DNA from: Planctomycetota bacterium
GTDB taxonomy: Bacteria > Planctomycetota > Planctomycetia > Pirellulales > Pirellulaceae
DNA length: 64,000 nt
Assembly: GCA_027622275.1 (NCBI GenBank)
Contig: JAQBZB010000005.1
Span: 1 to 64,000, forward strand
Direction: 5' to 3'
Position numbers and translations under genes: made by a program. This document shows, in pieces, positions 4,084 through 39,374 of this stretch. The notes under the pieces were generated by a model, which did no database searches, was not told where the DNA came from, and saw nothing but the letters and a program-made list of their open reading frames with translations. Within the stretch, counting starts at the first letter, position 1, and each line of letters begins with the position of its first letter.

Positions 4084-4130
4084 AGAATCACCAAGTTCGA
4101 GTTGGCCTGCAACTCGATCTGGAGTAGATC

Positions 4131-4723
4131 GTGACGACAGAAACATTTCGAGATGTCTATGCGAGGCTTACAGAAGGTAGCCAAGCTGCATCCGCCGAAG
4201 TGTTCGAGCGGTACGCGCGGCGGATTATCGGTTTGGCACGCAGACGGCTTGACGAAAGGCTGCAGGGGAAAGAAGAGCCGGATGACATACTTCAGTCCGT
4301 ACTCCGTAGCTTCTTCGTCAGGCAGCGTGACGGGAAGTTTGATCTGAACAACTGGGATGGCCTGTGGGCTCTGCTGGCTACAATCACCGCCCGAAAATGC
4401 AATCGGCGGTTGGAGTACTGGAATGCTGAGAAGCGAAATGTGGCTCAGGAGATTCATCCGACGATCCAGAGGCTGGATCTGACCCTAACGACCTCGCGAC
4501 TCCTGCGAACGCGGAAGACGCGGTCGTCATCGCTGACTTGATCCAGACGTTGCAGGAACAGCTTGATCCTCTTGGGCGAGAAATCCTCACACTGCGATTG
4601 CAAGGAGAGGCCATCGCGGATATTGCAGCGAAGGTCAATCGATCCGAGCGGACGGTACTGCGGAAGCTTGGCGACGCTCGGGGGTTCCTCGAAGCGATGC
4701 TTCACGAAGATGATGATTGCTGA
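4131..4723 (+). pseudogene. ECF-type sigma factor, frameshifted
   Basis: This is one planctomycete-type ECF sigma factor split between two frames. Frame one (GTG 4131, GGAG at 4121-4124) encodes region 2, including DDILQSVLRSFFVRQRDGKF. Frame two, ending at 4723, encodes region 4 (LDPLGREILTLRLQGE, then a helix-turn-helix with NRSERTVLRKLG). Reading on in the second frame from 4460 gives DDPEAGSDPNDLATPANAED and joins region 4 without a gap, so one base appears to be missing near 4458-4462. The gene converges on the broken kinase gene 22 bp away. It is either a pseudogene or a sequencing error; no slippery heptamer is visible. Confidence 0.8.
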
Positions 4724-4745
4724 TCAGCGGCGACAGTTTCGCGGC

Positions 4746-6785
4746 TCATTCCGATGAATCGTCTGCTGGCAGTCGGAATATGCGAATCGTCGCGTCGAGG
4801 CTGCCAGCGGCTGCAAACCGTCCATCCGGCGAGAAGGCAACATCGCTCACAGTTTGGCTTGCAGCAGGCTCTCGGTCAAACTTCTTTATCAACATTCCTG
4901 ACTTGGCATCCAGCAACTGCAGGCGTCCGCGATAATGTCCCGTGGCGACATATCGTTCATCGGGAGACAGTGCGAAGCTAGCGATGCCAAAGCCGACTTG
5001 GCCGCTCTCAAATTGCAGGCTGAGTTTCCCGGTCTCCACATCCCATCGACGCACGACCGCATCCGCACCAGCCGCCAGGATTTGTTGACCGTCTGACGTA
5101 AACACGACTCTGCTTACCCCCCGACGGCGATCACCGTCTTCGATCACACGCACTACTTCGAGATTGCCGTCACGTCGTAGTGGCTGCGTTACGTTGGCCG
5201 TTGCGGGATCGGGGGTGGAAGAATGCTCGACCAAGTCCGGGCCTTGCAGTTCCCTAATGCGGATGCTTCGAAATTGAGCGGGTGTATTCAGAACTTGCAA
5301 TCCGATCTGACCGGATTGGCGTTTCGCTTTCTCCCCTTCAATCTTCGCGTCAAGAACTAGCGAGTCGTTGTGCCATACGCGGACTCGGATGCCTTCCGCG
5401 ATAATCCGCACCGAGTGCCAGGTATCAGGAGTTGAATCAACGGCACTATCAGGTTTAGTTAGACCGTGGAGTGATGCGGTTGGCCAGCCTGTACCTACGT
5501 ATCGCTTGTCGTCCAGTAGTTGAACCTCCAGATGATACGCGCCGCCCGGTGAGGGAGATTGTGGATCAGCGCGCAGAAAGATCCCGCTGTTGCCACGTTC
5601 TGGAAGACGGTACTCAAACTCAAGTTCGAAATCAGAGAAATGCTCCTGGGTTCCCAACCAGCCTGCCCCGCCATCGAGCGACAGGATTCCATCTTCATTC
5701 GATGCCTTGATATCACGATGAACGACTCCCCGTTCGTGAGCAAAAGCGAGTCCTTCAGCAATCTGTCGCACGCATCCCACCGCGTCCGCCACGTCAAGTG
5801 GCCCATGCTCTTTGACAATCTGATGCAAGTTGGTGCCATCGACGTATTCCATCACGAGAAAGTGCGTGTCGCCGTCGCATCCAGCATCAAACGCTGTCAC
5901 GATTCGGGAGTGAATCAATCTCGCGGCCGCTCGCATTTCGCGTTGAAATCTTGCGACAGCATCAGTAGTCGAAACAAGTTCCTTGGACAGTATCTTCAGC
6001 GCGACAACCCGATCCATCGGCGTGTGCTTCGCCCGATAAACCCGCCCCATCCCACCGGCCCCAATTTCGTCCAGCAACAGATACTGTCCCAACCGGAGCA
6101 GCGCGGAGTTCCCTGCGGCAATCATCGCTGCCTGAAACGGTGTCAACAGGCCGTTGGAAACACAGATCGCCAGCGCCGACTGTGCCGTACCGGTAGATTC
6201 CGCCAGAACCGCGTCCCACTGTTCGCGTGAAACCAACTGCAAGCCAAGTACGACATCGGCAACGCTGCTTGCCGAACCATCGATGTAGAACTCCGTCTCG
6301 CAAGACGGATTGCGCAAGGCCACCGTTGTCTCGCGGCTCAACTCATTGGCTTCCTGATCAAACTGTGTATCCACGAGATCGAGCGCCGTTTCGAGTTCAG
6401 CCTGCTAGGCAGGGAATCGCTGAAGATACTCTTCTCGCGTCGGATTATCTCCGTACCGGCGACGGATCCGATATTCGTTGGCCAGTAGGTCCGTTGCGAT
6501 TCGATCATCGGACTTGACGATGCCGAACCGTTGCCAGTAATCTTCCAGGCGAGGACGGACCGGGAGACCAGACGGATCGTCGTGGTCCTTCGGTCGCAAC
6601 TGTTCGTCGGCTGAACTGCTGGCATATCGCCGCCAACGGTACTCTTGATCGACCGCAATGAGTTCAAGCATTAGTTCCTCATTTCCAGTTTCGGCACGCA
6701 TGAGAATTTCAGACACCGCGGGAGCGTTCCCAGACGCCCAGGCTTCTTCGAAGTCTTCGAGAAGTTGTTCCAGGTCAGGTTTCAT
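4746..6785 (-). pseudogene. Ser/Thr protein kinase-DUF1080-WD40 fusion, interrupted and internally deleted
   Basis: From the 5' end (6785), 126 residues match the N-terminal extension of planctomycete Ser/Thr kinases and end ...EEYLQRFPA. An amber codon at 6405-6407 then interrupts the frame, which stays open to 4746 (542 residues counted from a GTG at 6374). In that second part the P-loop GAGGMG is at residues 105-110, the VALK lysine is at 127, and the catalytic loop HRDIKASN is at 219-226. Immediately after it comes the middle of a DUF1080 domain (EDGILSLDGG...), so the DFG motif, activation loop and whole C-lobe are missing. WD40 blades follow from about residue 400. The stop is probably a CAG-to-TAG change, since FPAQAELE would read naturally. 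I infer it is catalytically dead. Confidence 0.85.
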
Positions 6786-7405
6786 TTCTCATTGCGGCTT
6801 TAATGAAGTGACGTGATTGGCTGCGACCACAATCTGTTAATGCGGAACGGAGAAACGCAAATGACATGCAATCCAGAAACAATGTGACTCCGCCGCTGCA
6901 TAGGGCTGCGGACGAATTACAGATTCGCACATTTAGTCTACACAAACCACTTCTTGAGCGAATGATCGAGTACCGCCAGCCAATTGTAAGAAAGCAACAA
7001 TGCCGGGCCGAGTATGTTACCGCAGTCAGCCCGGCACTTGATCGGACGCGTGAATTGGCAGGTCGTGGCTGGACTATATTTTTATTGAGCCTGCTTTGCG
7101 TTTCTGCCATTGAATAGATCTTATCTCGATTGCACTTCCCTTGAGCTGCTGCCACCCAATTACGCAAGGCGAAGTTCGATGAAATCGACTGCTCACCACG
7201 GGCCAACTTCTCCACGGCGGACAGCAGCCAGGGATATCTGAACCTGACTTATTCATGCCCTCAATGCACTGTCCGGCTGACGTACCTTCACGAGACAGCG
7301 GGGCGTGTGAGGTCGGCGGGCGGCGCGTCGGGGCGTAAGGCGCCCTACCCCAAGTTGTCGTGTGCTGAATTGATCCCATGAGAAACTACGCCGACAGGAG
7401 ACACG
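6786..7405. other. Gene-poor stretch
   Basis: About 620 bp with no coding sequence I can support. Open frames on the minus strand (for example around 7215-6775) show no recognisable domain. A perfect 8-bp inverted repeat (TGCCGGGC / GCCCGGCA) spans roughly 7001-7036, and a GTAAGGCGCCCTAC palindrome lies near 7337-7350. It separates the broken kinase gene from the transposase relic and is probably degenerate sequence. Confidence 0.4.
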
Positions 7406-8484
7406 TCACTCGCGCCGCACCTCCTCCGCAAACGCGTGCCGCGGCGGCGGAAGCCAAGGACACGCACGTGCTCCCAACGGAGTGGCAAAACGCGAGGGAA
7501 GTTGCCAGCGTTCAAGACAGGCGATCAGCCGCTGCCAGAACGGAGCCACCACCTTCGCCACCTGCAACACCAACCGCCGACCGTGCTTCACCACCCGAGC
7601 TCCCGCCTTCAACACGTCGCGCTGAAAGCGGCCCCAACTCGATCACGTCTTCGTAACCGCCCTTGGGCGGCCGGCCCACGGGCCGCCAGAGGTGCGGTAC
7701 CGCTAGCCGCTCGAGCACCGCATTGCTCTTCAAGCGGCCAATAAAACGCAGGCCGGCGTCGGTGAGTTCATCCAGCGTTTCGCCGGCGGTGTAGCCGGCG
7801 TCAATGCGGAAATCGACCACCTGCCCCAAGCGTTTGGCCTTGCGGATGACTTCATGCATGAACCGCCGCATGCCATGTGCCGTGTGAACTTGTCCTTGCC
7901 GCAGGAGCGCGTGCAGAAAGCCGTTGCCCAGGCGGTGTCCCTCGTGCATGCTGTCGTACGTGCCGGCCACCGAGTAGCTGGCCACCAGCGGATGATACAC
8001 CGTCTCCTTGTAGTAGCCGTTGTAAGCGGCACCCGGTTGTTGGCCGTAGACTTGAATGGGAAAGCTGTCGATGTCGACGGTCACGCGCCGCGCCGCCGGT
8101 GGCCCGCAGATGCCGCTCGCACGACTCGGCGAGCACGTCGCACAGCGCCGCGCGGTTGCCGGGTGTGAGCGTCAAGATATCGATCAACCGCGATTGCGTC
8201 GGCTGGCTGGCGAGCCGTTCGTCGATGGCTTGGTCGCCGGGGCGATTCCAAGCGGCTTCACGGAGAGGCTGTGAAAAAATCGTAGGGTGCGTGAAACGCA
8301 CCACAACATGTCGCGGATGGTGCGTTCCACTACATCTTGTGTCGCTAGCAACAAGAGATCTGATTTATTCACAGCCTCGGAGGAGGATGAAACCGGCGTC
8401 GGAGGTGATTCGGTCATCGCTGGCGAACACCTTGACGGCACGGTTGAACGAGGGTTCCAATAGCGGTTGAATGGCTTCACCCAT
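7406..8484 (-). mobile_element. Degenerate IS1380-family transposase
   Basis: Three fragments in different frames can be read from 8484 downwards. A start codon with AGGAG leads into an N-terminal piece (FNRAVKVFASDDRITSDAGF). It is interrupted by a 114-bp inverted-repeat insertion. The central piece (~8264-7630) carries RLASQPTQSRL, then after a frameshift the DDE-domain motif VDIDSFPIQVYGQQPGAAYN and FRIDAGYTAGETLDEL. A C-terminal piece (~7615-7406) carries KAGARVVKHGRRLVLQVA. The sections between LLR and RLASQ, and between DVIELG and KAGARV, are much shorter than in intact IS1380 transposases, so material has been deleted. No intact terminal repeats were identified. The element is dead. 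Confidence 0.8.
8265..8378. mobile_element. 114-bp MITE-like insertion
   Basis: The terminal inverted repeats are 17 bp with one mismatch: GAGGCTGTGAAAAAATC at 8265-8281 and the complement of GAGGCTGTGAATAAATC at 8362-8378. A direct GGA flanks both ends (8262-8264 and 8379-8381), consistent with a 3-bp target duplication. An internal perfect hairpin GGTGCGT-GAA-ACGCACC sits at 8286-8302. No coding capacity. It splits the N-terminal part of the IS1380 transposase relic. Confidence 0.65.
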
Positions 8485-8683
8485 TGCGTGATCTCCTGGT
8501 GTGACGTGGAATGCGGTTTACACCCCATGAAACACCGGGAATCACGCAATGATCTTGTCATTCGGAAATTGGTTGCGTGAATAAGACGGAATCAGGGGAA
8601 GGACTCGAACTCGTCCTCATGCTCCGCGTCCTGCTCCCTGCTTCCACAAAATTAATCCCGTGATGCGATTTGTTCGAAGACCA

Positions 8684-8722
8684 GGGGATAAGTCCAATTA
8701 GACAAATATTGGACTTATCTCC
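8684..8722. repeat. REP-like palindrome (GGATAAGTCCAAT type)
   Basis: The arms GGGGATAAGTCCAAT (8684-8698) and ATTGGACTTATCTCC (8708-8722) pair at 14 of 15 positions around a 9-nt loop. It lies in the otherwise empty 8485-8898 interval between the transposase relic and the J-like gene. It could fold in RNA or DNA; no role can be assigned from sequence. Confidence 0.6.
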
Positions 8723-31560: not shown

Positions 31561-31674
31561 GCATGTCGACAACTGTCACTGGATGTCCTATCTTGAACGC
31601 CGAGCCATTTGTTCGACATTTCGCGCCGTCACGAAAGCGACGAACCGGGCACGGGGTCGCTGGGGAGTTTTGCA

Positions 31675-33306
31675 ATGAACGCTTCAGAAACTGCGTCTCC
31701 CTACTTGCTGCGGATCGAAGGCGTCAACCTATCCTACTTCATCTTCGACACCGATGATCTTAGTACGATTCGGGGCGGCAGCTTGTTGTTGCTATTTGCG
31801 CCAGCGCTCGTACAAGACGATGCGATCTGGAAGCAACTGGCGAATGACGCCCCGGCGGCCGAGATCGTGACATCCGGCGCGTCGCAAACGATCTTGCGTT
31901 TCTCGGCGAAGTCGCAAGCAGCCGCCGATGCCGTTGCGAGGGAAGTTCGAACGTGGCTGCAATGTCACGAGGAACTCGGCGAGGCAACGTTTGTCGTGGA
32001 AGTCCGTCAGGACCATGATGACTTCGCGGTCGACAAAGAGTATCTGTTGGCAGCGAGCCGCTGGCAACAGATGCAACGCCCGCGTCTTGTCGTGCCACCG
32101 TGGAACGAACAGGCAGGTAAGGAGCAGCATCCTTGTGACATCGATTTCGTGCGTCCTGCGACCCACACGATAGACGCCAGAAACCTCAACAAACGCGAGG
32201 TCAGCCGTTCCGTCTCCACGCGCCGGGAATACGGCTTCGTTCACAAACAAGAACTTTATTACAAGCTGACCGGCTGGAAACCTCGTGACCGCGAAGGCAC
32301 GGAGTCGCAGTTGGCATGGGATTTCCACGAGATCGCCGCCCGTGGAGAACATCGGTACGGGCGGGCGGACGACAACGATGGTGATCCGCTTGCACATTTG
32401 CACGACAAGATGGCCGTACTCTACATCGATGGCAACCGATTTGGTGACATCCAACGGAGCAGTTGTCACGACTCAGCACGTCAGCGAGCTTGGGACGAGC
32501 ATGTGCAAGGCCTGCGCAAAAAGGTGCTGAAGAGCTTGCTGGAAAAAACGGACGATGATGACGAATGGATCTGCAAATTGGGGACGCCCAAACAAGGGAA
32601 GCCTCAGCAGATCGCGATTCGTCTCGAAACATTACTGTGGGGCGGCGACGAACTGACCTGGGTTGTGCCCGCCTGGAAGGGCTGGGAAGTCGTGCAAACA
32701 TTCTTCCAAGTTGCCGCCGCTTGGCCCCAATGGCAACAGAATGACAAGGACTCGCTGCAACTGACCCATGCCGCGGGATTGGTCTTCTGTCATGCCAGTT
32801 CTCCGATTCACGGTGTGACGGCGCTGGCCCGCGAACTCGCCGGACAAGTCAAGCAATGGAACAAAGATCAGTCCCAAGGCGAGTTGTCTCGCTATCAAGA
32901 CGGGATTGCTTATCAGGTGCTGGAGTCATTCGATCAACTTGGCGACGAAGTTGCCAAGGCGCGGAAGCGAGACTTGCCAGCCGGTTGCTCGCCCGCTGAT
33001 CTGGTGATTCCAGCAACCGAATTGACCGCACTAACCAGCGACTTGCTCAAGCCAATTCAAACCGGATTTCCACGAGGTGCGGTTTACCGGCTGTTGAAGT
33101 CGTTGCAACGTGGCAAGACCGATGAATATTGGCGATGGTTGGAGCGGGCAATGCGTGATCATCCGGTTCTGCCCGAATCGTTTGGCACCAGCCAAGACAA
33201 CGACGATCTGCCACCTAGTCCTGCGCAACAAATTCGCTGGCTGCACCTCTGTGAGCTATGGGACTACATCGGCCACCTCGACCCTTCGACCTTGGCGGCG
33301 GAGTAG
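31675..33306 (+). CDS. Cas10-like double-palm protein of a type III-like complex
   Basis: 543 residues from ATG 31675, chosen because GGGAG sits 7 nt upstream; the longer open frame has no such signal. Residues 1-130 are compatible with a first palm (NLSYFIFDTDDLSTIRGGS). Residues ~245-400 hold a second palm with LYIDGNRFGDIQ (D252) and LLWGGDELTWVVP (GGDEL 323-327), the position of the Cas10 GGDD cyclase motif. No N-terminal HD nuclease and no zinc-ribbon cysteines are visible. The C-terminal ~120 residues are helical and could correspond to the Cas10 D4 or Cas11-like part. First gene of a four-gene RAMP operon. The GGDE variant leaves cyclic-oligoadenylate synthesis open. Confidence 0.75.
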   Translation: MNASETASPYLLRIEGVNLSYFIFDTDDLSTIRGGSLLLLFAPALVQDDAIWKQLANDAPAAEIVTSGASQTILRFSAKSQAAADAVAREVRTWLQCHEELGEATFVVEVRQDHDDFAVDKEYLLAASRWQQMQRPRLVVPPWNEQAGKEQHPCDIDFVRPATHTIDARNLNKREVSRSVSTRREYGFVHKQELYYKLTGWKPRDREGTESQLAWDFHEIAARGEHRYGRADDNDGDPLAHLHDKMAVLYIDGNRFGDIQRSSCHDSARQRAWDEHVQGLRKKVLKSLLEKTDDDDEWICKLGTPKQGKPQQIAIRLETLLWGGDELTWVVPAWKGWEVVQTFFQVAAAWPQWQQNDKDSLQLTHAAGLVFCHASSPIHGVTALARELAGQVKQWNKDQSQGELSRYQDGIAYQVLESFDQLGDEVAKARKRDLPAGCSPADLVIPATELTALTSDLLKPIQTGFPRGAVYRLLKSLQRGKTDEYWRWLERAMRDHPVLPESFGTSQDNDDLPPSPAQQIRWLHLCELWDYIGHLDPSTLAAE

Positions 33307-33312
33307 CTTTCG

Positions 33313-35307
33313 ATGCTTCAACTAACTTTCACCTTACAGCTCACAATCAAAGGGCCGTTTACGACCAAGTCCTCCGGAGTCGGAGGCTATGGCGTCGACG
33401 CCGTCTTGCTGCGCGACCGCCATGGAAAGCCGTTGCTGCCAGGCACGCAAGTCCGTGGACGCGTGCGCGAGTCCTTGGAGGAACTCGCGTCTGCGATCGG
33501 CGAAAGCGAAGGCGAAACGCTCGCGACATTTGTCCGAAACGCTTTCGGTCCACCGGTCAAACTCGATGCATTCGAACCCGCGCACGGACATCGTGCAGGT
33601 GCGATCCACTTTAGCGACTTTACAGGCAGCGACTCGCCACCGGCTGGCGACGACGCCGAGCAGTTGCTAACTCGTATCCAGGTTGATTCAGCGAAAGGCA
33701 GTGCTCACTCACACGCCTTGCTCGTACTCGAGACGGCAGCCGAACCAGCGCGTCTCATCCGATTCGAAGGCAAAGTGGAGCTATTCGAACGAGACGTTGA
33801 CAGCGCGGTCACGGCGGCGGACTACTTATTCAAAGCCCTCGACTGGGTTCCCTCGCTGGGCTCGTTTCGCACGGTTGGGTTTGGGAGATTCGTCGGCGTG
33901 TGTGTCACTGGCGTGAAGGCGAAGTTGAATGAAGCGGGGGGTGACCAGACCGAGAATCTAGTGCCGGCCCTGGACGATCGGCTCGCGGAGTTATGTGAAG
34001 AAATGCCACCGGCGGACCTCGTCTGTATCGAACCTGCGGCAGCTTGTGCCGAGACAACGTCTTGCTGCCATCTCGAACTGCAACTCCACGAACCGTTCGT
34101 TGTGGGACAGCGACGCACGAACCGTAATATCACGCGGTCGGTCGATTATCTGAGCGGCGCGGTGATCAAGGGTGCGCTCGCCGCTCAACTTCAACGCTGG
34201 TTGTCGGATCGCCGCGAAGTTGGTCCCCGCACGGACGTTGGCACTCTCGGCCCAGGCACGCGCTGGGAGTCGTTGTGTCTTCATTTGTCGCAGATACGTT
34301 TCTGTACGGCGTTCCCGATCCGCAAAGATCAACCCGGTCGGCCCGTCGTCCAACCGTTGTCGCTGGTCAAATTTGACGATCAACTGCGTGATGCGGCACT
34401 CGCGCGCGGGCCTTGTGTGCTGAAAGCCGGCACCGACACGTCAGCGCCGGTCGCACCGGCGTTCTCCGTCGATTGGAAAGACCCGGCAACATCCCCTTGG
34501 GACAGCGGTCTCGCGCGCCCGGTCAAGGAGCTTCGTTTTCATACGGCGATGGATGATCAGACTCGAACGGCGCGACACGAGCATCTCTTTGCACACGAGC
34601 TGGTGCATCCCGTTGATAAAGAGGAACGGCCGCTCGTCTGGCGCGGCACAGTCGACCTGTCTCGCGTGCCAGAGGTCGTCCGCAACGATGTCCGCCGTCA
34701 GCTGGGCGAAGTATTCGGATTCGTCGAGCTTCACTTTGGCAAGACCAAGGCCCGCGCCCAGGCATCGCTCGACACGAGTGCTTCGTTGTCGGCCAGCCAG
34801 GTTTCGTCCACGACTCCGATCGAGGGCAATCAATGGGTGATCGTACTGCAATCGCCGGCATTTCTCGCAGATCCCCGCACCGTTCAACAATCTTGGGACG
34901 CGGGAGAACCGGACGGTTTGAAACGGGAATACGAGCGGGTCTTTGAGGAGTTTTCAGGAGGCTCGTTGCGATTGCTCCGCTACTTCGCCGATCAATCGCT
35001 ACACGGGGGATTCCTGGCACAACGCACGGCCCGTGATTTGAACCAACCCTACAATCCCCTGTTCGTAACCGAACCGGGCAGCGCGTTCGTCCTTGAAGCA
35101 ACCGGCGATCCTTCGTCGGCAGCCGGCCAGATCGAAACTTGGTTCGCAGGCGGCTTGCCGCTCCCCGATTGGGCCAAGACTCTGTATGGCGAGACGTATC
35201 GCACCAACCCGTTCTTGCCGGAGGATGGATTCGGCGAGATCGCCGTCAACCTATCGCTGCATGAATCGCTTCGCATCAACGACGACGAGGCCGAGTATGT
35301 CAACTAA
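33313..35307 (+). CDS. Multi-domain RAMP (Csm3/Cmr-like) protein
   Basis: 664 residues starting 6 bp after the Cas10-like gene. The first RAMP domain (1-200) has a Csm3-like layout: GGYGVDAVLLRDRHGKPLLP, then GTQVRGRVRESL (44-55), IHFSDF and the glycine loop GSFRTVGFGRF (183-193). D29 aligns with the target-RNA-cleaving Asp of Csm3. A second RAMP domain (about 250-470) has FVVGQRRTNRN and LSGAVIKGALAAQLQ but no matching Asp. A third region (about 490-664) is RAMP-like only in outline. This is a fusion of backbone subunits that are separate in ordinary type III complexes. Confidence 0.75.
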   Translation: MLQLTFTLQLTIKGPFTTKSSGVGGYGVDAVLLRDRHGKPLLPGTQVRGRVRESLEELASAIGESEGETLATFVRNAFGPPVKLDAFEPAHGHRAGAIHFSDFTGSDSPPAGDDAEQLLTRIQVDSAKGSAHSHALLVLETAAEPARLIRFEGKVELFERDVDSAVTAADYLFKALDWVPSLGSFRTVGFGRFVGVCVTGVKAKLNEAGGDQTENLVPALDDRLAELCEEMPPADLVCIEPAAACAETTSCCHLELQLHEPFVVGQRRTNRNITRSVDYLSGAVIKGALAAQLQRWLSDRREVGPRTDVGTLGPGTRWESLCLHLSQIRFCTAFPIRKDQPGRPVVQPLSLVKFDDQLRDAALARGPCVLKAGTDTSAPVAPAFSVDWKDPATSPWDSGLARPVKELRFHTAMDDQTRTARHEHLFAHELVHPVDKEERPLVWRGTVDLSRVPEVVRNDVRRQLGEVFGFVELHFGKTKARAQASLDTSASLSASQVSSTTPIEGNQWVIVLQSPAFLADPRTVQQSWDAGEPDGLKREYERVFEEFSGGSLRLLRYFADQSLHGGFLAQRTARDLNQPYNPLFVTEPGSAFVLEATGDPSSAAGQIETWFAGGLPLPDWAKTLYGETYRTNPFLPEDGFGEIAVNLSLHESLRINDDEAEYVN

Positions 35308-36919
35308 ACACTCCAAGTTCGTCAATCGAATCCGTATCGTTGGAAGTCTGACGTTGGACAGCGAATTGCATATCGGTGACGGTGGCGTCACTCCGGACAC
35401 GGCGTTCACGAACAACGAAAACCAAACACGACGCCCGCCCGACATTGCCACGATCGCCCGCGACATGGCAGGCAATCCCGTCGTTCCAGGCGCAGCGATC
35501 AAAGGCGTGCTTCGTTCGTATCTGGAAAAGAGCAAATCGCTCAAGCCGGTGATCGACGCTGTTTTTGGGCGAACGCCGGGAACAAAGTCGTCAGACGTTC
35601 AGGAGCTTCCCGGGGAAGAACGAGGGACTGGCGGCAAAGTCGAGTTTTCGTACGCCCCGTTGCTGCCGCTGGCCAACGACGACGCTGCCGAAACCGTAAG
35701 CGACACAACGAACGAATTGCCCGTTCAATCCTCGGTTGGCATCAATCGTCAGACCGGAGCCGCCCACGATCGGGCGCTCCGCTCGTCCCAGTACGTGCCG
35801 CGTGGCCGCGCGTTCGAAGTCGAGCTAGTGGGATACAACCTTGATGAATCGGAAATCGGGCTATTGCTTCACGGGCTCGATGGATTCGATGATCGCGAGC
35901 GGCTACGGCTGGGCGCGGGCCACGCGAATCAAGCCGGTTTGGCGACGTGGGAATTGGTCGAGTTGCATCACATACAACCGCAGGATGTGAAGCACTGGTT
36001 CGCAACGCCCCACGCCGACCGCCCGGATTGGCGAGACCTTGGCAAGTTGAACTCGAGTGCTCGCAAGAAGCTCGAAGAACGTGCCGCCAAGGCGATCGCG
36101 GGCAAGTTCGCCAAACCGTCACGGCTGACTGGCGAGATCACCTTGCATTTTGATGGGCCGTTCTTGACCAACGACGCGCGCTCGACGGACGACGACGTCG
36201 ATCATCGCCCCAGTTTGACATCCGACGGCAGATTGCTGCTCGCCGCCCGAGGGTTTCGCGGCGCGTTCCGCAGTCACGCAGAGCGGATCGTGCGGACGCT
36301 GAACGGTCAGGCGGCGGGCGACCCATTCGCGAAGCCGCCGGGATCAGCGGCGGCAACGCCGTCGAAGGCGACTCCGAATCTGATCGACGAACTCTTTGGA
36401 AACACGGATCACCGCGCGGTGTTGGAAGTATCCGATTTCGTCGCGGACGCCCCGCTGACTGCGACCGAGGTCCAGGAGTTCGTGGCGATCGACCGCTTCA
36501 CCGGTGGAGCGGCAGACGCGAAGAAGTTCAACGCTCACTTTGTCTACCGACCGACGCTGAAGGGACGATTATCCATTCTGCTGGAGGATCTGCGGCCGTG
36601 GAGCCTGGGGCTGTTGGCGTTGACGGTCCGCGATTTGATCGAAGGCGATATCACGTTCGGCTGGGGCGCTTCCAAAGGTTATGGAGCCTGTCGTGCGGAG
36701 ATCAGCAAAATCTCCTGCCCGATAGCGTTCGATGTGACCCAAGCCTTTGGCGAAGAGTTCTCGATCGATGCGAAGAGCTGGAAGTCGTCTCATAAATTGC
36801 TACACCAAGCCGCACCGCTGGACCCGAACTTGCTTGAACCAACGAAGTCCATCTTTCCCACATTGCTCGCCAGTGCTGTACAACAACTTCACGCCAAGCT
36901 TGGCATCACCGCCAAATGA
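35297..36919 (+). CDS. Double Csm3-like RAMP protein
   Basis: 540 residues from ATG 35297, overlapping the previous stop by 11 bp. Two Csm3-type domains are fused. Domain one: ELHIGDGG, D49 in PPDIATIARDMAGNPVVPG, then AAIKGVLRSYLE and the loop LRLGAGHANQAG. Domain two (from ~275): D302 before SDGRLLLAARGFRGAFRSH, ELFGNTDHRAVLEVSDF, EFVAIDRFTGGA and the loop FGWGASKGYGAC. D49 and D302 fall where Csm3 has its RNA-cleaving Asp. The linker between domains is rich in charge. Predicted to form backbone segments that bind guide RNA and cut target RNA. Confidence 0.78.
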   Translation: MSTKHSKFVNRIRIVGSLTLDSELHIGDGGVTPDTAFTNNENQTRRPPDIATIARDMAGNPVVPGAAIKGVLRSYLEKSKSLKPVIDAVFGRTPGTKSSDVQELPGEERGTGGKVEFSYAPLLPLANDDAAETVSDTTNELPVQSSVGINRQTGAAHDRALRSSQYVPRGRAFEVELVGYNLDESEIGLLLHGLDGFDDRERLRLGAGHANQAGLATWELVELHHIQPQDVKHWFATPHADRPDWRDLGKLNSSARKKLEERAAKAIAGKFAKPSRLTGEITLHFDGPFLTNDARSTDDDVDHRPSLTSDGRLLLAARGFRGAFRSHAERIVRTLNGQAAGDPFAKPPGSAAATPSKATPNLIDELFGNTDHRAVLEVSDFVADAPLTATEVQEFVAIDRFTGGAADAKKFNAHFVYRPTLKGRLSILLEDLRPWSLGLLALTVRDLIEGDITFGWGASKGYGACRAEISKISCPIAFDVTQAFGEEFSIDAKSWKSSHKLLHQAAPLDPNLLEPTKSIFPTLLASAVQQLHAKLGITAK

Positions 36920-36947
36920 CCGCGGACGAATCACAAAGGATCAAGTC

Positions 36948-39374
36948 ATGCCGAAATTTCATAACCCCTACCATTTCGTACCGATGCCCGCGGGACAGGG
37001 CGACCAGCCGCCAGCGGTTGCGAGACGAGAGTTCGAAGGTCAAACGGCAGCCCACTTGACGCACGATCGTTACGTCTCGCAATTGTTCAGCGGGCGTCTG
37101 GTGTGCCAGTTGCAGACTAAAGATCCTGTGATCATCGGTGCGGCGCAAGAGGCTGGCGACAAGTCGAGCAACACGAGCCGACAAGTCACGCCCTTTCAAC
37201 TGCCGAATCGCTCGGCCACGGACGCTGGTGAGGCAGAGAAGCTGCCGGCAATCCCCGCTTCGACGCTGCGCGGATTGATCTCGTCTGTCACCGAAGCAGC
37301 CACCTGCTCGGCGATGCGAGTGCTGGCCGATACGCGGCTGTCGCGGCGGATGGCGATGGGAAAAGGAACGCGAAGGGAGTCGCTCTCCGCCATCGGAATG
37401 ATTGTGATCGAGAAAGACGAAAATGGTACGGAGACGCGCCGCTTGCGTCCGTTGGCCTTGCCATCGCTGCAATATGATGTGGCGCAAGGTCGCTCGATAC
37501 TGAAAGACGAGCAAGCGGCCGTGTGGAAGATGTTCTCAGATTGCCGAACTGCACTGCGAGTTTACGTAGATGTGGAACCCGATTCCTACGGTGCCGACAA
37601 CCGCAACGAATTTTGGTATTTGAAGCTTCCCCCGCAGGACGCGATTCGAGTCACCGCAGACAAATCGGGGATCGAAGTTCAGGACGTGGGCGGGGCGGGA
37701 GACCGTGGCCGAGAGCTCTCCTGTCCCTTTGCCAAGATCAAAGTAACTGGCCCGACCCATCAGTTATTGGCACAACAACCTGTCGGCAACAGGAATCCGC
37801 TATCTCGAGACAAACTCGAATTGCCATCCCCGGAAGCCAACCCGGCCGATCACGGCTACACGCGCGGAATTCTGCGTGTCTTGGGGATCTTCGACGGACG
37901 CGCTAGCGAGATGCCGACCAAGAAGCACGAGATCTTCTTGCCCTACACCGAGCGCGACGAACAGCGGCCTACTTTCGCAATCACCGACGGTGCCTGGGAC
38001 ACCTTCCGCGCCCTGGCGGACCAGCAAGCGTCGTTGAACAAGGAAAATACGAAACCGGGTGATCAGTTGCCCTTCCATACCAAAGGCTCGCAACGCGCTG
38101 AGAAGACCAAGATCAAACGCATCGAACATCCGTTACGGTTACGCGACGGCGATCTGGTCTTCTTTCAAGCGGGTGACGGGGACGATGGGGAGCCGGTCGT
38201 CGATGAATTGGCCGTCTCGTCGATTTGGCGGAAGGACTCGGGGCCGGTGCATGCTTACTTCGAAGGCCTTTCTCCCGAGCTGCTCCCCTTCAACACGCAG
38301 CGCAAGACGATCACGGTGGCGGAGCAGATGTTCGGCTTCGTGGAAGAAGTGAAGAAGGAACTCACGGCGAAGTCGGCCGCCGGTTCCGCCAAGAAGCCGC
38401 CCCCGCTGGCGTTCAAAAGCCGGTTGCGATTCTCGTTCGGGCACGCGGCACCAAGCCAGAGCGACCTGTTGCTGCCCGAGGTGCCGCTGCGTCCGCTGCT
38501 GTCCCCCAAGCCACCCTGCCCGGCGATGTACTTCACGCGACGCTCCGGTTCACAAAAACTCATCACCAAACAGGAATTGAAACCGCCACACAACAAGACC
38601 CAAGGCAAACAAGACGACCAGGACTACATTCCGCAAGGCCGTAAGTTCTACTTGCATCGCCATGACGCTGGTCAGCCCCTTCCGCCAAACGCCGAACCCT
38701 GGCGGGCCGACGATCAAGCCCGACCCGATCTGTCCGCGATCGCAACTCCGATCGCCGCCAACAAGACCTTCTGGTTCCACGTCGACTTCCACAATCTAAC
38801 ACGGCACGAGCTGTCCGCGCTTTGCTATGCGCTATCGCCCGCCGACCAGTGGCTCGAAGCCGGTGACTATCCCCCCCAGCTCTTGGCAGACGGCGCGCGG
38901 CCCAAGTTCTGGCACAAGCTAGGCATGGGGAAACCGCTGGGTTTGGGAGCGGTCGAGATCAAGCCCTTGGGATTGTTTTATGTTGATCGAGAGCAGCGGT
39001 ATCGGGAATTGACTTGGGACAAAAGCGCGCCGCGTTATCGTTGCGTCCGCTTCCATGCCGGTGGCGATGCAGGGTTGTTGCCCGCTTGGTACGAGCAAGA
39101 GCGGGCGACCCAAGAAAGCGGTGCGGACGGACACTACGCATCGTTCGGCGAATTGCGTGCCGAGTTCCGTGGTTCGATGAACCGAACCGTTCGCCGAGCG
39201 TTGGAGTTGATCGGAAATCCCGCGTCAATTACGGCCCTCGTTCAGCCACCGCGCGACGAACAGGCCGAGCCGGCCAAGGCCCAGTACGAATGGTTCGTGC
39301 GGAATAAAAAGCAGTGCCTGCCGCCGGTCACCGCCGAGTCGGAACAACTGCCCAAACTCGACACTCGTCATTAG
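36948..39374 (+). CDS. TIGR03986-type CRISPR-associated RAMP protein
   Basis: 808 residues from ATG 36948 with AAAGGA upstream. It begins MPKFHNPYHFVPMP, the signature opening of TIGR03986 RAMP proteins. Next come HDRYVSQLFSGRLVCQLQTK and IPASTLRGLISSVTEAAT, the usual RAMP helix after strand one. A second RAMP half covers roughly 470-790 (DYIPQGRKFYLHRHD, KLGMGKPLGLGAVEIKPLG as glycine loop). In other genomes this family occurs beside Cas10 and Csm3-like genes in type III loci. It is the last gene of the operon, followed by a repeat-rich non-coding stretch and no CRISPR array. Confidence 0.82.
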   Translation: MPKFHNPYHFVPMPAGQGDQPPAVARREFEGQTAAHLTHDRYVSQLFSGRLVCQLQTKDPVIIGAAQEAGDKSSNTSRQVTPFQLPNRSATDAGEAEKLPAIPASTLRGLISSVTEAATCSAMRVLADTRLSRRMAMGKGTRRESLSAIGMIVIEKDENGTETRRLRPLALPSLQYDVAQGRSILKDEQAAVWKMFSDCRTALRVYVDVEPDSYGADNRNEFWYLKLPPQDAIRVTADKSGIEVQDVGGAGDRGRELSCPFAKIKVTGPTHQLLAQQPVGNRNPLSRDKLELPSPEANPADHGYTRGILRVLGIFDGRASEMPTKKHEIFLPYTERDEQRPTFAITDGAWDTFRALADQQASLNKENTKPGDQLPFHTKGSQRAEKTKIKRIEHPLRLRDGDLVFFQAGDGDDGEPVVDELAVSSIWRKDSGPVHAYFEGLSPELLPFNTQRKTITVAEQMFGFVEEVKKELTAKSAAGSAKKPPPLAFKSRLRFSFGHAAPSQSDLLLPEVPLRPLLSPKPPCPAMYFTRRSGSQKLITKQELKPPHNKTQGKQDDQDYIPQGRKFYLHRHDAGQPLPPNAEPWRADDQARPDLSAIATPIAANKTFWFHVDFHNLTRHELSALCYALSPADQWLEAGDYPPQLLADGARPKFWHKLGMGKPLGLGAVEIKPLGLFYVDREQRYRELTWDKSAPRYRCVRFHAGGDAGLLPAWYEQERATQESGADGHYASFGELRAEFRGSMNRTVRRALELIGNPASITALVQPPRDEQAEPAKAQYEWFVRNKKQCLPPVTAESEQLPKLDTRH

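Follow-up and report, generated by a model that had tools for sequence, protein, structure and literature searches.

On the minus strand of the window, i.e. the whole stretch of 64,000 nucleotides that was analysed, positions 4746-6785 hold the coding strand of a kinase-like gene that is interrupted by a stop codon and in which half of a kinase domain runs straight into a DUF1080 domain. This raises the question of whether the locus is a decayed gene, a product of assembly, or a protein of a new kind. Most likely there is no new protein type here but simply a dead gene: we put at roughly 0.77 the probability of a pseudogene that derives from a single-pass, receptor-type Ser/Thr kinase with the kinase-DUF1080-WD40 architecture of planctomycetes. 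The features of the locus and of its immediate surroundings are the following:

4131-4723, plus strand: ECF sigma-factor gene with a frameshift around 4440-4500 (Sigma70_ECF profile positions 10-99 of 185 in one frame, Sigma70_r4_2 in another)
4749-5123, minus strand: short WD40 stretch, ca. three repeats by eye (Pfam; two stretches pass alone)
5253-5696, minus strand: DUF1080, now 3-keto-disaccharide hydrolase (3keto-disac_hyd, PF06439), Pfam profile positions 27-187 of 187
5696/5697, minus strand: junction, without the DFG motif, C-lobe, membrane segment and linker expected here from the spacing in relatives
5697-6404, minus strand: adaptor region and kinase N-lobe ending in HRDIKASN (Pfam Pkinase positions 3-128 of 263, at 5697-6077)
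6405-6407, minus strand: in-frame amber codon TAG; the frame of relatives continues past the same position
6408-6785, minus strand: N-terminal domain of the kinase gene, 126 codons from an ATG at 6785, with matches in relatives
7512-8084, minus strand: transposase remnant (Pfam DDE_Tnp_1_4, profile positions 140-257 of 435)

An interrupted frame that lacks the kinase C-lobe

The remnant is not a single open frame. As the first-pass annotation had read it, though with no strand stated, the TAG at 6405-6407 parts the 126-codon ORF from 552 codons that stay open in the same frame until a TGA at 4746-4748. The translation contains GAGGMG and VVALK, which we take to be the glycine loop and the conserved lysine of the N-lobe, as well as the HRDxKxxN catalytic loop of Hanks-type kinases (PF00069), present as HRDIKASN directly ahead of the junction. 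There the Pkinase match ends, at position 128 of 263, and the remnant has no DFG motif, activation segment or C-lobe, also in agreement with what had been noticed earlier; nor is there a transmembrane helix between kinase and DUF1080, since HRDIKASN abuts the latter. The same annotation had let the kinase jump into the middle of DUF1080: the join is indeed immediate, but it lies near the start of that domain, of which positions 27-187 of 187 are present. A WD40 propeller usually needs about seven repeats, and the ca. three counted by eye in the remnant are too few to close one; reading three frames below the TGA by eye revealed no further WD40 remnants.

Codon log-odds, for which 21 large ORFs picked by us within the window served as the reference, are positive in each of the four parts of the remnant (0.082, 0.038, 0.038 and 0.008), and the two shifted frames score below zero (-0.118 and -0.260), which argues that the frame is derived from coding sequence. 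Its GC3 (0.565) is below that of all 21 reference ORFs (0.593-0.770), a value that fits relaxed constraint but is no proof of it. The frame has no additional break downstream of the TAG, so that decay would be recent or incomplete.

The position of the stop can be compared with relatives of the 126-residue N-terminal domain, which was matched in 22 of 60 sampled genomes, that of the window included, with 36 rows outside the window. In a frame check that leans on ORFs which had to be open in order to be listed, and from which ca. 15 of the 36 rows were left out (including G077:C25, with a frame of only 121 codons), each of the 24 rows, corresponding to 21 distinct genes, stays in frame for 84 residues or more beyond the N-terminal match. 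A kinase hit lies in the same frame in 19 of these 21 relatives (aligned as 21 rows); of the two without it, L072 appears to end close to where a kinase begins, and L078 continues into something else. Seven of the 21 reference ORFs terminate in TAG, so that it is an ordinary stop here, which, together with the continuation of the frame in the 21 relatives, upholds the nonsense mutation proposed earlier.

Intact relatives and searches for the same junction

Among the loci collected for comparison, eight distinct ORFs outside the window combine a kinase with DUF1080 (L090, L132, L133, L134, L137, L138, L140 and L141; L024 is part of L090 and hence was not counted separately). The Pkinase match reaches at least position 253 of 263 in all eight, and in each of them 355-1267 residues separate the catalytic loop from the point at which the DUF1080 of the window begins, a distance that is nil in the remnant. 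With the shortest of these relatives (355 residues) as a guide, the missing stretch amounts to ca. 1.07 kb or more; an in-frame deletion had been postulated before, rightly so, but its size had been given as several hundred bp. A simple residue pattern detected a hydrophobic stretch in seven of the eight relatives, L132 being the one in which that pattern gave none. The lesions, taken together with the complete kinase domain of all eight relatives, support the earlier reading of the locus as a decayed sensor.

Two of these relatives deserve a closer comparison. L132 (G002:C194, from a genome of the same genus; 1531 codons) shares with the remnant the order kinase, DUF1080, WD40, so that the intact architecture predicted from the window does exist; it differs in that Pkinase (1-253 of 263), DUF1080 (1-187 of 187) and a long WD40 part are all complete, and its N-terminal region has no match to that of the remnant. 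L090 (contig C494 of the same genome as the window; 1178 codons) is a kinase-DUF1080-DUF1080 protein; its first DUF1080 gave the best of the matches obtained and natively begins late too, at profile position 20. In contrast to the remnant, L090 has a complete kinase, a membrane-like segment and no WD40 hit, and since the two are only 35% identical in the kinase and 44-45% in DUF1080, it is not a direct parent. WD40 and a complete DUF1080 also occur together, with their order reversed, in a second gene 2.4 kb away from the remnant, at 58-2307 of the window (plus strand).

Homologues with the same junction in intact form, which the first-pass annotation had named as evidence against decay, were found in none of the genome samples searched. 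These samples, of 60, 98, 396 and 392 genomes, overlap, and they contain one genome per species. The 542-residue protein, searched against 60 relatives at E 1e-60 or better, retrieved only itself among the best 24 candidates scored per genome, and the DUF1080-WD40 part, searched against 98 genomes at 1e-25, retrieved itself and C494 only (best 23 candidates per genome). A junction-centred query of 120 residues rendered no shared junction in 396 genomes of the order and only itself in 392 genomes of the phylum, in both cases among the best 11 candidates scored per genome. Twelve of the 396 genomes, that of the window included, gave matches to this query, with rows located on the DUF1080 side except for those of the window itself and of G286. 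The latter (E 4e-13) was rejected as a shared junction, being a complete kinase with a DFG-type motif whose alignment crossed the junction by chance.

In the named genome collection 38 loci were matched, none of them with a DUF1080 hit, and those checked of the matches running beyond query residue 226 (L037, L042 and L064 among others) turned out, with one exception, to be ordinary kinases. Thirteen such or otherwise long-matching loci were checked: 11 have an HRDxK or HADxK loop and then a DFG-type motif, and in the two others, L054 and L049, our pattern found no loop, the match of L054 running past the junction. No close orthologue of the remnant was found in the genomes searched.

Probable decay of the locus, its surroundings and the alternatives

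The intact gene would have encoded a cytoplasmic kinase, one transmembrane helix and, outside, a DUF1080 and WD40 part, which presumably sensed a ligand. An in-frame deletion, probably in this lineage, has most likely fused the catalytic loop to DUF1080 with loss of the DFG motif, the C-lobe, the membrane helix and the linker. The nonsense codon would end translation after 126 residues, and even if it were read through no working kinase product would be possible, so that function has presumably been lost. Decay is indicated by the truncated domains, the intact relatives, the lack of a shared junction in the searches, the low GC3, the damage to neighbouring genes and the broken frames of kinases on C44 and C183 of the same genome.

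Regarding these neighbours, the ECF sigma-factor gene, convergent (tail to tail) with the remnant, adds with its frameshift a lesion absent from the first-pass annotation; the five relatives of this gene that were inspected are single ORFs. The transposase remnant sits in DNA of which BLAST found partial copies elsewhere in the same genome. Repeated DNA at 7233-7583 and 8257-8382 matches the end of contig C149 with 96% identity and pieces of C162, C229, C389 and C169 with 83-92%. When another 20 large ORFs in the window were scanned, 14 had a Pfam match over at least nine tenths of the profile and three had no match; the lesions therefore seem to be clustered at 4.4-8.6 kb rather than to reflect poor sequence throughout. 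Elsewhere in the window, the region 31609-39374 (plus strand) carries Type III CRISPR-like genes, with a Cas10/Cmr2 palm domain and two RAMP ORFs, after which comes an ORF of 875 codons that has no Pfam match at 1e-5.

The main rival to decay is an assembly artefact, i.e. that the conserved catalytic loop of a kinase was joined to a DUF1080 in the draft and the middle was dropped. The draft genome consists of 555 contigs and contains 107 Pkinase matches. Six contig ends lie at Pkinase positions ca. 123-147 (C478, C435, C388, C543, C147 and C183), ca. 0.9 being expected by hand calculation; contig ends therefore gather in the stretch from the catalytic loop to DFG, and assembly is difficult exactly at this motif. 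We nevertheless consider an artefact unlikely, with something like one chance in six, as the join keeps the frame and both the amber codon and the sigma frameshift stand apart from it as separate lesions. Moreover, when the 141-base junction region was compared with 229 other loci none shared more than 15 bases and none spanned the junction, and BLAST of window positions 4100-8700 against the same genome rendered no second copy near the junction, although a collapsed repeat would show in neither comparison. A near-identical copy, as a sign of misassembly or as a parent, was discarded for the region near the junction on the same BLAST result. Nor was a leftover DUF1080 starting at a contig end found above threshold in this genome, at a sensitivity at which a 26-position fragment would escape detection.

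Considerably less probable is that the locus encodes a working, re-purposed N-lobe-DUF1080-WD40 protein with no kinase role, starting after the stop (e.g. at the GTG at 6374). The 552 codons open past the TAG and their coding-like codon use would be in accordance with such a protein, but it would consist of half a kinase domain, no membrane helix and ca. three WD40 repeats, and no relative of such a form appeared in the searches run. That UAG is read here as an amino acid, as the frame open on either side of the TAG might suggest, is hardly credible, given the ORFs that end in TAG (seven of the 21 picked) and that readthrough would leave the C-lobe missing all the same.

Decay thus being the preferred reading, the remnant taken alone merely adds a decayed paralogue to a genome that has 107 Pkinase matches, and it calls for caution in that it would enter a list of domains as a kinase or as a DUF1080 protein.

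Catalytic-loop inserts in sibling kinases and comparison with known systems

More interesting than the remnant itself are the REP-like, palindromic, in-frame inserts that some sibling kinases carry in the loop immediately behind HRDxKPxN, beside the position of the breakpoint. From HRDxKPxN to D[FLM]G, 97 of the 105 distinct loops in all collected loci have 11-16 residues and eight have at least 20; in the genome of the window, six of 45 distinct loops have 28-36 residues. Five of these six (L004, L007, L015, L026 and L027) form long hairpins according to RNA folding energies, and their inserts are in frame and of at least three sequence types. When four of the five hairpin loops were scored for palindromes, two were clearly above 20 shuffles (14 vs 10 and 8) and the other two exceeded the shuffles narrowly (10 vs 9). 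Palindromes are neither present in every loop insert nor confined to loop inserts: the best of 20 shuffles was beaten by four of ten insert rows in the loop (profile positions 131-135) and by one of 16 elsewhere (L270, position 230). L007 contains, at 830-885, a 56-base palindrome that starts with GTAG and ends with CTAC, and a similar GTAG...CTAC palindrome of 61 bases (L030) is found near another kinase of the same genome. That all loop inserts stem from one abundant family of repeats was rejected, as one 18-base arm, searched with at most one mismatch, has just two occurrences in the genome.

Damage is also seen in other kinases from the same genome. The one on C44 (L225) has a frameshift right after HRDLKPAN, and that on C183 (L223) a tandem-repeat insert, CTCAACTCTCAACC, and a frame break near the catalytic loop. 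On C343 (L224), the kinase match ends at profile position 174. In this genome, inserts, frame breaks and contig ends seem to concentrate at the turn of the catalytic loop, which affects the counting of planctomycete kinases. It would be a further step, and one that we regard as improbable, to take the turn after HRDxKPxN as a hotspot of insertion and breakage across the ca. 100 kinase paralogues of this genome and the deletion in the window as the scar of a cut or slipped hairpin; no palindromic insert is kept at the window junction, and the link between inserts and deletion is therefore speculation.

The GTAG/CTAC tag of the L007 palindrome is similar to that of REP elements of the GTAG superfamily. 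According to PMC3733652 these elements occur in Planctomycetes and, for several species, within genes, so that REP inserts in frame are already known. A gathering of REP elements in the catalytic-loop turn of kinases was not seen in the portion of PMC3733652 consulted or in the literature searched.

As for the remnant, the part of PMC11032199 consulted describes membrane-spanning Ser/Thr kinases of Planctomycetota with periplasmic DUF1080 or WD40, that is, with the same domain set. Unlike those kinases, the remnant has neither C-lobe nor membrane segment, its WD40 repeats are few and its frame is interrupted by a nonsense codon, as would be expected of a recently decayed paralogue of this known receptor-kinase architecture.
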